DNA of 64,000 nt from Bordetella genomosp. 7 (GTDB taxonomy: Bacteria; Pseudomonadota; Gammaproteobacteria; Burkholderiales; Burkholderiaceae_B). The stretch covers positions 496,001 through 560,000 of the forward strand of contig NZ_NEVK01000008.1 in assembly GCF_002261265.1 (NCBI RefSeq). The letters run 5' to 3'. Below are positions 33,221 to 40,305 of this stretch, piece by piece. The position numbers were made by a program, and so were the translations under genes. The notes below the pieces were generated by a model. It saw only the letters and a program-made list of their open reading frames with translations, was not told the origin of the DNA and did not search any database. The number at the start of each line of letters is the position of its first letter. Positions within the stretch are counted from its first letter, which is position 1.

Positions 33221-33934
33221 TCAAGGGTTGGCGAACAGGTAGCCGCTGCCGTATACCGTGCGGATGGGCAGCGTGGCGCCGGCCAGTTCGGCCTTGCGCC
33301 GCAGGCGGCTGATGATCACATCGATGCTGCGCGCACCGCCGGTGCGGCCGACATGGGCATCGGATTCGAGTTTTTGATTGAGTTCGGCGCGCCCGACCGC
33401 GTGTCCGGCGACCTCGAGCAGCGCCTGCACCACCAGGCGTTCGTTGGCAGACAGCGAAATGCTGACGCCCGTGGGCGATACCAGCGTCCAGTTCTGGTCG
33501 CGCATTTCCCACCGGCCGGCGAACTTCGTATCAAGGTCCGAAAAAGGGGCCGGTTCGATCGAACTCCCCGGCAGGCGGCGCGCCAGCGCCAATAGCACAC
33601 AGGTCAGCTCCCGGCTGTCGGCCGGGTGCTGCAGGCAGATGTCGGCACCGCTTTGCAGGCAGCGCAGCCGGCCTTCGACGCCCGCCGTGCAACCCGTCAC
33701 GACGATGCCCAGTGCCGGCGAGGCCCGAAGACGCGACACCAGCGCATAACCGATTTCCCCAAGCTGGTTGATATCGAGAACCGTTGCATCGTAGTGCTCG
33801 GACTCGAGCTGCCTGAAGAGCTCGAGCGGGGTGGCGCACCCTTCGGCCGCGATGCCTGCCTGAGAGAAAACCGCCACGGTCTGCTCGCGGATTGTTGCGT
33901 CGGGCGCCATGATGAGTACGTTGAGTTGCTTCAT
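33221..33934 (-). CDS. OmpR-family response regulator with atypical receiver domain
   Basis: Encodes 237 residues. The N-terminal receiver-like domain (about 1-115) has a phospho-acceptor candidate D54 (TVLDIN) and T80. The acidic pair is reduced to a single Asp (MAPD), and the conserved lysine of the last strand is replaced (CLQHPAD, around residues 102-103). Phosphorylation may therefore be weak or absent. The C-terminal winged-helix domain (about 140-237) is well formed, ending TVYGSGYLFA. It is transcribed divergently from a canonical regulator at 34163 and lies upstream of the str operon on the same strand. Target genes are unknown; the neighbouring island is the natural guess. Confidence 0.85.
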   Translation of the reverse strand: MKQLNVLIMAPDATIREQTVAVFSQAGIAAEGCATPLELFRQLESEHYDATVLDINQLGEIGYALVSRLRASPALGIVVTGCTAGVEGRLRCLQSGADICLQHPADSRELTCVLLALARRLPGSSIEPAPFSDLDTKFAGRWEMRDQNWTLVSPTGVSISLSANERLVVQALLEVAGHAVGRAELNQKLESDAHVGRTGGARSIDVIISRLRRKAELAGATLPIRTVYGSGYLFANP

Positions 33935-34162
33935 ACCGTTGTCCCTAAAGATCGCCGGCCCTTATTTGCGCTGCGGCATGTCGGGTCAGATGCGATATTT
34001 CTGAGACAGTGTGACGCTAAGTTGCGCGACAACGTAGTCAATCTTTGTCAACTTGACGTTGCTTGACGATCACAATGTTGCAAGAGTCTATTAAGAGCAA
34101 CGGCGCGTTATCATTGCACTGCGGTATCGAGTTACGAAGCCCGTCAGCTTGAAAAGGCCCTT
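33935..34162. promoter_or_regulatory. Divergent regulatory region between two response regulator genes, with CTTGACG direct repeats
   Basis: Two CTTGACG heptamers at 34052 and 34062 lie exactly ten bases apart, the spacing expected for tandem OmpR-family binding. Related sequence (GTCAA at 34038 and TTGTCAA at 34046) precedes them. TTGACG at 34063 with TCTATT at 34087 (18-base spacer) is a possible promoter for the rightward regulator gene. This is a pattern-based proposal only. Confidence 0.45.
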
Positions 34163-34912
34163 ATGCTCTCTACAGCACCAAAGCCTATGCGCGTCGCCTC
34201 GCTTGAAGACGACCTTGATCAAGCGCGATATATCCAGCAAGTCCTTACCAATGCGGGATATTCCTGCCAGAGTTTCCCGCGCAGCCGGGATCTGCTGGCA
34301 GCCACGCGCAGCCAGCAGCCCTTCGACCTGATCATCCTCGACTGGCAGGTTCCGGACATGGCCGGCGACGAAGTGTTGCGGCAATTGCGCGCTACCCTGG
34401 GGATGCAGACGCCTATCATCTTCCTGACCAGCCGCGACCAGGAAGCCGACCTGGTCCAGGGGCTGCAGGCCGGCGCCGACGACTACGTCACCAAGCCGTT
34501 GCGTCCGGCGGAGTTGCTGGCCCGCATCGGGGCCCTGCTGCGGCGCAGTCGCGCCGCGCAGCCGGATCACACGCCGTTCTCCGTGGCAACGTACCGCATC
34601 GACCCGCTCAATCGTGTCATTTCGCTCAATGGCACGGATGTCTTGCTTGCCCCCAAAGAATTCGAGCTGGCGCAGCTTTTCTTTCGAAACGTGGGCCGCC
34701 TGCTTTCGCGCGAGGTGCTGGCCGAAAGTGTCTGGAACCGCGAAATTCCCGCCACATCCCGGACATTGGACACACATTTGTCCAATATTCGCCAGAAGCT
34801 CCAGTTGCGGCCGGAAAACGGGGTGCGCCTGGCGTCGTCATATGCGCTGGGATATCGGCTTGAACTATTGAGCGAAGGTGCAGGCGCACCACACACGCCA
34901 GGCCCCCGCTGA
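34163..34912 (+). CDS. OmpR-family response regulator
   Basis: Encodes 249 residues with a canonical receiver: acidic pair EDD near the start, phospho-acceptor in ILDWQVPD, the switch threonine in FLTSRD and the conserved lysine in DDYVTKPL. The winged-helix DNA-binding domain follows (VLLAPKEFELAQLFFRN; TLDTHLSNIRQKL). The ATG at 34163 has AAGG upstream; a second in-frame ATG at 34187 is possible. It is followed by the LysM-FecR gene (26-base gap) and the CHASE2 kinase (16-base gap). The three look like one operon, with this protein the likely phosphorylation target of that kinase. Confidence 0.92.
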   Translation: MLSTAPKPMRVASLEDDLDQARYIQQVLTNAGYSCQSFPRSRDLLAATRSQQPFDLIILDWQVPDMAGDEVLRQLRATLGMQTPIIFLTSRDQEADLVQGLQAGADDYVTKPLRPAELLARIGALLRRSRAAQPDHTPFSVATYRIDPLNRVISLNGTDVLLAPKEFELAQLFFRNVGRLLSREVLAESVWNREIPATSRTLDTHLSNIRQKLQLRPENGVRLASSYALGYRLELLSEGAGAPHTPGPR

Positions 34913-34938
34913 GCCTGCGCTATCCGGAGACTTTTTAC

Positions 34939-38392: not shown

Positions 38393-38414
38393 ACGGCCCG
38401 AACGGTCCTGGGTG

Positions 38415-39656
38415 CTAGCGAAACACGTGCGTGATCACGGTGGGTTTGCCTGGCTTGACCTCCAGCGTCGTCCGGTAGGCGGGCTGGGCCGAATTGCGTA
38501 TCGTCACCTTGTAGCGCCCGGGAGCCAGGCGCAGTGTCTTCAAGGGGGGAGTCACGCCCCTGGACACGCCATTGATCAGGATTTCACCCCAAGGCCGCAC
38601 GTTGATGCTGACTCGAACGGGCGTAGCCGCCGGCGCTGCGGGCTGGTCAGCCGTGACCGGCTTCGTATCACCGGTGGCGGCCGGGGCCTGCGCCTCCGGT
38701 TCGGCAGACGCGGACGCCACCCCCGGGGCTGCGGTGTCCGTCACTCCGTCGGCCAAGGGGCCGGCTGACACCGGGGAGTCAGTCGGCGCGGGAAGGCTGT
38801 TGGCTGGCGGCGGCTCGACGGGGGACGGGGCCTCTAGCGAAGGCGACAACGCTCCCGAGCGCACGACGGCAGGCTCGGAGTGAGTGATCACCTTGTTCGG
38901 CTTTTCGGTCAGCCGCGTCCACCAATAGACGGCAACGGCAATGGTGGCAAGGCCTAGCAGCGCGGCCTTGCATATCGAGCGCAACTGAAGGCCGCGGCGC
39001 GAGGCGTAGACATCGTCGGTCTGGTAAGACGGCTCGGCAGGTTCGGCCGGCTCGGACACTGGCTGCGCCGCGCGTGGCGTCGCAGGCAATGCCAGCAATT
39101 CGGCGTACTCGCGCAGCGCCTGCGGCCGGCTGGCAGGCCGCATGGCCAAGCCGGCGTCTATCGCCGCCAGGAACCCGGCGTCGTAGTTGGGCAATTCCTG
39201 CGCCGCCAGGGGCCGATATGTGTCATTGACGCGCCGCTCCGGCGCAGCAGGCGGGCGTCGCCCCGTAACCAGCGAGTGCGCCACAGCGCTCAAGGCGTAA
39301 ATGTCGGTCCAGGGGCCGCGCGGCCATTCGGATGCCTCGGTATACAGTTCGAACGGCGCATATCCCGGCGTAAGGGGTGGAGCATCGGGCGTGCGCGCCG
39401 CTGCGGCAAGCGCCATCAAATGCGCTTTGCCGTCTTCGTCCATGCCCACGGAATGCACCGAGATGTCGCCGCACAACCGGCCGTGTTGGTGCAGATCTTC
39501 GAGCACCGGGATGAGTTCGGCAATGATGCGTTGAATGCGCTTTTGCGGGACCCCTCCGGCAGTCGTGGCCGCGATCGCACTCAGCGGGCGATGGGCCAGA
39601 GGCGCGGCGCCAGCGAAGGGCCCGCGCGGCGATGAAAAACCGGCAGAGGAATACAT
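38415..39656 (-). CDS. Membrane-anchored Ser/Thr pseudokinase with periplasmic PEGA domain
   Basis: Encodes 413 residues. The first 190 residues match only the C-lobe of a eukaryotic-like kinase. LHQHGRLCGDISVHS stands where HRDLKPxN is expected, keeping one Asp (D64) but not the Lys and Asn. LMA replaces DFG, and GYAPFELY (100-105) and WTDIYALSAV match the APE and helix-F regions. The glycine loop and catalytic lysine are missing, and the upstream frame closes after about 26 codons. A transmembrane helix (about 230-247), a Pro/Ala/Thr-rich linker, and a C-terminal PEGA domain (about 345-413: GEILINGVSRGVTPPLKTLRL) follow. It therefore looks like a catalytically dead receptor linking cytoplasm to envelope. 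It converges on the CHASE2 kinase gene. Confidence 0.82.
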   Translation of the reverse strand: MYSSAGFSSPRGPFAGAAPLAHRPLSAIAATTAGGVPQKRIQRIIAELIPVLEDLHQHGRLCGDISVHSVGMDEDGKAHLMALAAAARTPDAPPLTPGYAPFELYTEASEWPRGPWTDIYALSAVAHSLVTGRRPPAAPERRVNDTYRPLAAQELPNYDAGFLAAIDAGLAMRPASRPQALREYAELLALPATPRAAQPVSEPAEPAEPSYQTDDVYASRRGLQLRSICKAALLGLATIAVAVYWWTRLTEKPNKVITHSEPAVVRSGALSPSLEAPSPVEPPPANSLPAPTDSPVSAGPLADGVTDTAAPGVASASAEPEAQAPAATGDTKPVTADQPAAPAATPVRVSINVRPWGEILINGVSRGVTPPLKTLRLAPGRYKVTIRNSAQPAYRTTLEVKPGKPTVITHVFR

Positions 39657-39912
39657 AACCGAATTAGCGGGATTGATGCTTTCTCGTTGTGCGCCCGTGG
39701 CGGCGCCCGATTCCGACGCTAGCAGCGAAGTTTACCGGAGTTACTTTTTATAACGTAAGCTCGCAGTAAGACGCATTATTATCGCGCCGCAACACGCGTT
39801 ATTGACTCGTACAACGGATATTATCCGAGCATCCCTGGGTGGTTCATTTCACAATGGCTACTCAAGGAACAGGATGTGACTATGTTCCCGACCACCCGTC
39901 CCGCAATTGCAT

Positions 39913-40305
39913 ATGAATAACCGCGTTGTTTTGCCTGCTTTGCTTTGCGTAGTAGCCCTGCTCGCCGGTTGCGCCGGCATGGGCGCATCAGAGGGCCCCG
40001 CCTCGCCCGCTGCCGAAAGCGCCATGAACCACGTCCGCGAGCAATACGCTGCGGGACAGTATGGCGGCGTCATTCGCACGGTCGCCGTATCGGGCGACAT
40101 CGCCACCGCACCCAAATCGCTGCGCATCGAGGCTTACAAGCTGCAGGCCTTCAGCTACTGCGTGCGTGACTTTGCACAATTGTGCGAAGACACCTTTGTC
40201 CGGATCCTGCAGCTGGATCCGGGCTTCACGCTGGCGCCCAATGAAGCGGGCCATCCTCAGTGGGGACCTGTATTCCAGGCCGCCCAGGCGCGCGCGGGCA
40301 AGTAG
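39913..40305 (+). CDS. Small helical-repeat lipoprotein (resembles TssQ-type T6SS-associated lipoproteins)
   Basis: Encodes 130 residues. A signal peptide ends in the lipobox LLAGC, so the protein should be lipid-anchored. The rest is helical (EQYAAGQYGGVIRTV; RIEAYKLQAFSYCVRDFAQL) and ends FTLAPNEAGHPQWGPVF. That last pattern resembles, from memory, the TssQ family of lipoproteins found with Burkholderiales type VI secretion genes, and the middle could be a TPR-like pair. No other secretion gene is in the window. It is transcribed away from the pseudokinase gene across a 256-base gap and converges on rpoC. The start has no clear ribosome-binding site. Confidence 0.8.
   Translation: MNNRVVLPALLCVVALLAGCAGMGASEGPASPAAESAMNHVREQYAAGQYGGVIRTVAVSGDIATAPKSLRIEAYKLQAFSYCVRDFAQLCEDTFVRILQLDPGFTLAPNEAGHPQWGPVFQAAQARAGK

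Follow-up and report, generated by a model that had tools for sequence, protein, structure and literature searches.

Do the six genes that lie between rpsL and rpoC in Bordetella genomosp. 7 (GTDB family Burkholderiaceae_B) work as one system, or are they neighbours with separate origins? The stretch of DNA considered here, referred to as the window, is 64,000 nucleotides long (contig NZ_NEVK01000008.1, positions 496,001 to 560,000), and the six genes, referred to as the island, occupy positions 33221–40305 of it. A sequence-only reading had proposed a single functional unit that senses the cell wall or periplasm, inserted between rpsL and rpoC, possibly tuned to growth by its ribosome and polymerase neighbours, and unlike any named system. 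The observation is confirmed, as all six genes exist where described and are old, and the interpretation is partly supported. We consider it probable that the island consists of two neighbouring modules: a two-component system of the published BiofilmReg type, and a pseudokinase derived from PpkA together with a TssQ-family lipoprotein, the two ends of a type VI secretion system (T6SS) segment that was lost. The island contains the following features, with the short names used below.

33221–33934, minus strand: RRA, an OmpR-type regulator transcribed divergently from RRB, its receiver degenerate (a pseudo-receiver) (Pfam/NCBIfam domains, receiver residues)
34037–34067, no strand: operator-like block in the RRA–RRB spacer, GTCAA-N5-GTCAA then TTGAC-N5-TTGAC
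34163–34912, plus strand: RRB, a canonical CreB/PhoB-like response regulator of the BiofilmReg-type core (Pfam/NCBIfam, intact receiver residues)
34939–36045, plus strand: FecR, a LysM-FecR protein, probably exported (Pfam), 26 bases from RRB and 16 from HK
36062–38392, plus strand: HK, a CHASE2-(PAS)-histidine kinase (Pfam; H557 in HDMRAP, N-box and G-boxes present)
38415–39656, minus strand: PK, a PpkA-derived pseudokinase, C-lobe only, with a hydrophobic segment, Pro-rich linker and C-terminal PEGA-like domain (profile, alignment, tree)
39819–39824, plus strand: TATTAT, a possible −10 element of the TssQ gene
39907–40305, plus strand: TssQ, a TssQ-family T6SS-associated lipoprotein (NCBIfam NF038027)

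From RRA to TssQ the strands run − + + + − +, between rpsL (−) and rpoC (−). Of 151 family genomes, 80, from 27 of 43 genera, have an HK match with E at or below 1e-40, and the HK loci of the other 79 genomes were fetched (genomes are coded G and fetched loci L; g1 is the window's own genus, and g4, g6, g36 and g40 are others). All six genes recur in identical order and on identical strands in 15 of these 79 loci. This shared arrangement favours one six-gene envelope-sensing circuit, in which PK, with its PEGA domain in the periplasm, and TssQ would have been recruited to feed signals into the CHASE2 kinase, and RRA and RRB would carry the output. We regard such a circuit as unlikely, however, for reasons that begin with the layout: the HK and PK genes are convergent and therefore not one operon, and PK is absent from 61/79 HK loci. 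PK is found in 18 and RRA in 19. RRA, PK and TssQ were seen jointly at the island's place only in genera g1, g4 and g36, and G031 has RRA alone. The six-gene set is divided between two contigs in G141, and the island is broken up in G092 (L052), where rpsL and rpoC are 3.27 Mb apart on opposite strands and matches to HK and PK are incomplete or interrupted.

The part that forms a unit wherever it is located is RRB-FecR-HK. These three genes are consecutive in 76 of the 79 family loci, the exceptions (L051, L055, L111) showing RRB and HK and no FecR match; rpsL, rpsG or rpoC lies within the fetched stretch in 65 of the 79. At the level of the order, HK was matched (E 1e-60 or better) in 36 of 300 genomes, 31 of them outside the family, and loci were fetched from 20 of these 31. 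Matches to RRB, FecR and HK lie together on one strand in 17 of the 20 (in one the order differs, and in another there is a gap of 2.3 kb), while two of the other three have no FecR match and one starts at a contig end. No rpsL, rpoC, RRA, PK or TssQ was seen in the fetched stretches of the 20 loci. As RRB, FecR and HK stay together in 17/20 loci away from rpsL-rpoC, the three-gene core is a unit. Co-occurrence outside the rpsL-rpoC location, which had been suggested as support for a unit of six, thus holds for the core and in 0/20 loci for the other three genes.

The domains of the core are well matched in Pfam, both in RRB (receiver 88 bits, Trans_reg_C 64.2) and in FecR (LysM 32.9, FecR 59.3); for HK, CHASE2 (179.8) and HATPase_c (100.6) are clear, with HisKA (25.5) and PAS (17.9) slightly under their cut-offs. 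All six active-site positions of the RRB receiver are kept in 20/20 sequences, so its active site is complete. Together with the co-occurrence of the core genes, these domains bear out the cell-wall or periplasmic flavour that had been read from the sequence and a real sensor-regulator unit.

The core is also not nameless. By its sequence, and by the accessible parts of two articles, it is BiofilmReg, a system already published (Voronina et al, 2016, PMC5192318; PMC4324302). A CreB/OmpR-type response regulator, a LysM-FecR protein and a CHASE2 kinase follow one another in that order on the same strand, and across Burkholderiales they are conserved as a unit. In the accessible part of the first article, a response regulator, a LysM/FecR gene and a CHASE2 kinase gene (with an added DUF4136 gene in Burkholderia) are named the BiofilmReg operon, and three-gene forms are reported from Achromobacter, Bordetella and Ralstonia (PMC5192318). 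A plasposon insertion in the response regulator gene of B. contaminans abolished biofilm formation and is said there to stop all four BiofilmReg genes (PMC5192318). In B. cenocepacia, according to the accessible part of the second article, six suppressor mutations hit Bcen2424_1436, a response regulator partnered by 1438 with CHASE2 and PAS, and Bcen2424_1436 mutants formed much less biofilm (PMC4324302). The text of PMC8552884, another article linked to Bcen2424_1436, yielded no match to 1436. By analogy the island's core may be required for biofilm formation as well; in these sources, as far as accessible, the role is published for Burkholderia only, for the response regulator or the operon.

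The core is thus already known, and what this clade adds to it is the pseudo-receiver regulator RRA, sharing a conserved operator-like block with RRB. RRA is matched by the Pfam receiver (36.9 bits) and Trans_reg_C (41.3) models, and its receiver lacks a complete active site: both the conserved Lys and the first of the acidic residues have been substituted in 20/20 sequences, and the phospho-Asp is kept in 17/20 (the Thr column is uncertain, with a one-residue shift). The block at 34037–34067 is conserved in the RRA-RRB spacer. Of 81 loci, 25 carry a half-site pair (at most one mismatch) upstream of RRB, compared to a mean of 2.3 and a maximum of 8 in shuffled sequences (no upstream sequence was available for L113, and L001 and L066 are apparently the same locus). 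Separated by RRA status, the pair is present in 20/20 loci with RRA vs 5/61 without (L062, L063, L075, L081, L104). A search of the window for the half-site pair, one mismatch allowed, gave 5 matches vs 2.4 expected. The PK-TssQ spacer showed no match to the operator pattern; a single regulon of six genes was rejected on this ground, and the same result speaks against the six-gene circuit.

On the other side of that argument, an RRA-type regulator adjoins the T6SS PK in 6/6 T6SS clusters of the genus (L143:9459-10286, L205-L209). The one in the window's own genome is 31% identical to RRA, and these T6SS-side regulators group with the island RRA (93/85, not starred, with a long-branch warning), which favours the circuit of six. 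No match to an RRA-type regulator was found in ten T6SS loci of other genera, where as little as 1.6 kb was covered beyond PK. RRA as a general T6SS gene was rejected, given this result and the unstarred sister support.

The second module begins with PK. A profile of 18 relatives matched the PpkA kinase domain (5hnv) with E 8.2e-42, over its C-lobe part (profile 38–205). In the alignment of these 18, the N-lobe and DFG are missing, and the HRD Asp is present in the window copy and not conserved. Given kinase kinship combined with the lack of an N-lobe, DFG and a conserved Asp, PK is a PpkA-derived pseudokinase and not PpkA. A single hydrophobic segment (225–246) lies ahead of a Pro-rich linker and the PEGA-like end. 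The PEGA match stays below its threshold: PF08308 scored 16.1 bits vs a Pfam cut-off of 20.8 and was found at E 0.01 or better in 6/18 relatives, with the motif nevertheless clear in the 18-member alignment.

The gene first called a lipoprotein is more exactly a TssQ-family T6SS lipoprotein, scoring 123.3 bits against NCBIfam model NF038027 (cut-off 65); a Pfam search of it gave no match. Its signal has a lipobox-like LLAGC, and of two candidate starts, ATG at 39913 is likelier than TTG at 39907. A structure model made without an alignment is all helical (mean pLDDT 65.9). TATTAT upstream of it is kept in 16/17 aligned PK-TssQ spacers, and a consensus promoter scan found no promoter in this region. 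The leader before TssQ (window 39820–39900) is strongly conserved across seven genus genomes, for example in the stretch ending GGATGTGAC, and this conservation exceeds promoter needs.

Relatives show where such a pair belongs. Among the 151 family genomes, TssQ is present in 49, tssC in 70 and PK homologues in 55, with a PK homologue in 48 of the 49 TssQ genomes; 23 of 54 TssQ places lie at most 31 kb from tssC with PK at most 16 kb away. Ten inspected T6SS loci have the order PK - TssM - TssL - TssK - TssJ - TssQ - TagH, with TssQ and TagH on the opposite strand (in two further loci, L156 and L170, TssQ is on the TssM strand). In G009 and G049, a T6SS including tssC lies between rpsL and rpoC itself: PK is the first T6SS gene seen past rpsL, and PK and TssQ of the window have the same order and strands as in this cluster. 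The interval holds PK, a TagH-like FHA gene, VgrG and TssQ in G005 and G047, whereas PK and TssQ are adjacent there in G077, G100, G120 and G139. In G005 (L154:4463-13397), VgrG stands beside a pentapeptide-repeat protein and the TagH-like FHA gene, between PK and TssQ, making this stretch an auxiliary T6SS locus in the same position. HK was matched in none of these six g6 genomes, so PK and TssQ occur at rpsL-rpoC without HK, a further point against the six-gene circuit. In the PK tree (44 rows), 19 island PKs form one clade (100/99), which joins the six g6 rpsL-rpoC PKs (98/92) and is placed among T6SS PKs.

PK and TssQ therefore look like the ends of a T6SS segment deleted between rpsL and rpoC, and the simplest history suggested by these gene orders is that an rpsL-rpoC T6SS lost its middle. 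It is improbable that they are instead an independent mobile or persistent two-gene module, acquired by T6SS clusters rather than left behind by one. This would fit G028, where PK and TssQ are adjacent away from rpsL-rpoC (L162:7905-10126) in a genome without a tssC match, and the adjacency of the two in four g6 genomes. It does not sit well with TssQ and TagH inside a conserved T6SS order in 10 loci, with island and g6 PKs falling among T6SS PKs, or with the four genomes whose rpsL-rpoC interval likewise contains T6SS genes, be it TagH, VgrG or an entire cluster. No report of TssQ or of a PpkA-type pseudokinase at rpsL-rpoC was found in the literature, with subscription journals mostly uncovered.

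If the pair was left behind, does TssQ still serve a T6SS? The window's own genome has a T6SS on another contig with TssA, B, C, D, F, G, H, J, K, L and M and its own PK; a TagH-like gene there scored 78 bits, under the cut-off, and TssE and VgrG were not identified. This cluster has no TssQ between TssJ and TagH, and the same is true of five more genus genomes; in the sixth, G141, no matches were seen in the fetched piece. All 7 genus genomes have a single TssQ, located in the island. G068 is reversed, with TssQ in its T6SS and none in the island. T6SS gene order in relatives suggests that TssQ works with a T6SS, and in this genus it may do so in trans. In g4 (G075), the inspected tssC region is only distantly similar (TssL 33%, TssK 29%), and a second PK was not found in G003, G075, G098, G118 and G137.

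Several observations weigh against the two-module explanation or parts of it. The pattern suggesting TssQ in trans may come from one event in the genus plus G068, and G045 has TssQ in both its T6SS and the island. Island TssQ is kept without a tssC match in G092, G113 and G132, and with a lower-scoring tssC only, and no second PK, in G003 and G148; TssQ is thus not kept for this T6SS alone. More broadly, tssC went unmatched in 5 of the 49 genomes with TssQ, among them G142, which is 84% complete. The TssQ tree (36 rows) is too short for placement and its branching is not settled. Most HK loci have no T6SS trace, so we infer the order of insertion and deletion only. As for the operator, L062 and L063 (g40) have the same GTCAA-N5-GTCAA pair at the same spacing in the absence of RRA, and it may therefore belong to RRB. 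When up to 2 mismatches were allowed, the longer pattern had a single site in the window's own genome, 34037–34067, matched on both strands; the control, the pattern reversed, likewise had one match on each strand (1+1), equal to the real pattern.

Are the leftovers still in use? The ratio of nonsynonymous to synonymous substitution rates (dN/dS) is 0.08–0.33 for the six genes over five pairs of sequences and 0.08–0.24 for PK and TssQ; between G132, which has no tssC, and G148 it is 0.13 for TssQ and 0.17 for PK (frames were taken from stop to stop, and some dS values are near saturation, up to 1.74). Given these low ratios, the PK-TssQ pair is not junk, and a role independent of the T6SS is possible. 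Low dN/dS in all six genes, also in the pair with T6SS-less G132, is in keeping with a six-gene circuit too. It makes it very improbable that PK and TssQ are decaying relics without function. PK has indeed lost its N-lobe and DFG, and some copies are lost or stopped (island TssQ is missing in G036 and G068, and G092 has a stop within its PK match), but the low ratios, the conserved spacer with its TATTAT and the single old clade of island PKs all speak against decay. Overall, the proposed unit of six stands for RRB-FecR-HK and in the selection on all six genes, and is not supported for PK and TssQ, which are T6SS-derived and occur without HK.

The location itself raised two further claims, which concern the following flanking features.

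32559–32936, minus strand: rpsL, left neighbour (context; family search)
40341–40370, minus strand: terminator-like hairpin after rpoC, 13 pairs (context; strongest of such sites)
40421–44659, minus strand: rpoC, right neighbour (context; family search)

We surveyed the 120 family genomes in which a single contig carries both rpsL and rpoC, at most 70 kb apart. The gap is shorter than 1 kb in 28 and longer in 92, ranging from about 0.2 kb to about 70 kb. The interval is therefore variable across the family and the island shared, not recent; the six genes are between rpsL and rpoC as described, though "inserted" needs qualifying. GC content is 0.59–0.69 over the island vs 0.60–0.65 in the flanks, with no clear break, and a recent foreign insertion was rejected on this ground and on that of the shared old synteny. 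The junction is apparently a hot spot for gene gain at essential genes. Long gaps without HK or T6SS matches also exist, for example in G008, G016, G019 and G023. The search for terminator-like sites gave 12 vs 7.1 expected in shuffles. No evidence was found for growth coupling through rpsL and rpoC, and the hairpin between rpoC and the island, the strongest of these sites, speaks against read-through from rpoC. An anti-phage system was also considered and rejected, as PADLOC matches were weak only (PK 22 bits, HK 35 bits).

Under the two-module explanation, the first module would work as follows. A peptidoglycan-held LysM-FecR protein and the CHASE2 kinase would read the envelope; the kinase would phosphorylate RRB, which would switch biofilm genes. 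RRB is predicted to bind the operator at 34037–34067, controlling its own operon and the divergent RRA, and RRA is a probable phosphorylation-independent partner or brake. In the second, PK and TssQ would be what remains at either end of a T6SS segment after the loss of its middle (tssM-L-K-J) from this locus. Both are still under selection; in this genus TssQ probably serves the T6SS on the other contig, and a role of the pair in the absence of any T6SS is also possible. A more speculative link between the modules, which we think doubtful, is that two parts left by the lost T6SS and kept by the biofilm sensor locus, TssQ and the dead PpkA-type kinase with its PEGA domain in the periplasm, report T6SS or envelope state to the CHASE2 kinase and LysM-FecR protein, with RRA and its T6SS-side sister regulator coupling biofilm formation to T6SS assembly and TssQ acting in trans.

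What looked like a new signalling island thus becomes a published biofilm system next to selected leftovers of a secretion machine, and an example of a T6SS leaving accessory genes behind at an essential-gene locus.

Compared to known systems, the core resembles BiofilmReg in having a response regulator, a LysM-FecR protein and a CHASE2 kinase in the same order in one operon, and Bcen2424_1436/1438 in its pairing of a response regulator with a CHASE2/PAS kinase (PMC4324302). It differs from BiofilmReg, as described in the accessible part of that source, in lying between rpsL and rpoC with a divergent RRA and a shared operator-like block, and in having no DUF4136 fourth gene, with PK and TssQ adjoining. 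PK shares with PpkA the kinase C-lobe, one membrane segment and, in relatives, a place in T6SS clusters, but lacks the N-lobe, DFG and a conserved catalytic Asp, has a C-terminal PEGA-like domain, and is encoded outside the T6SS cluster. TssQ resembles the NF038027 family in its score, its lipobox-like signal and its place in the T6SS of relatives, but the window copy is encoded away from its own T6SS. The Bacteroidota TssQ, described in the accessible part of PMC10781749 as a transmembrane helix with a periplasmic domain, is apparently not the TssQ of the window.

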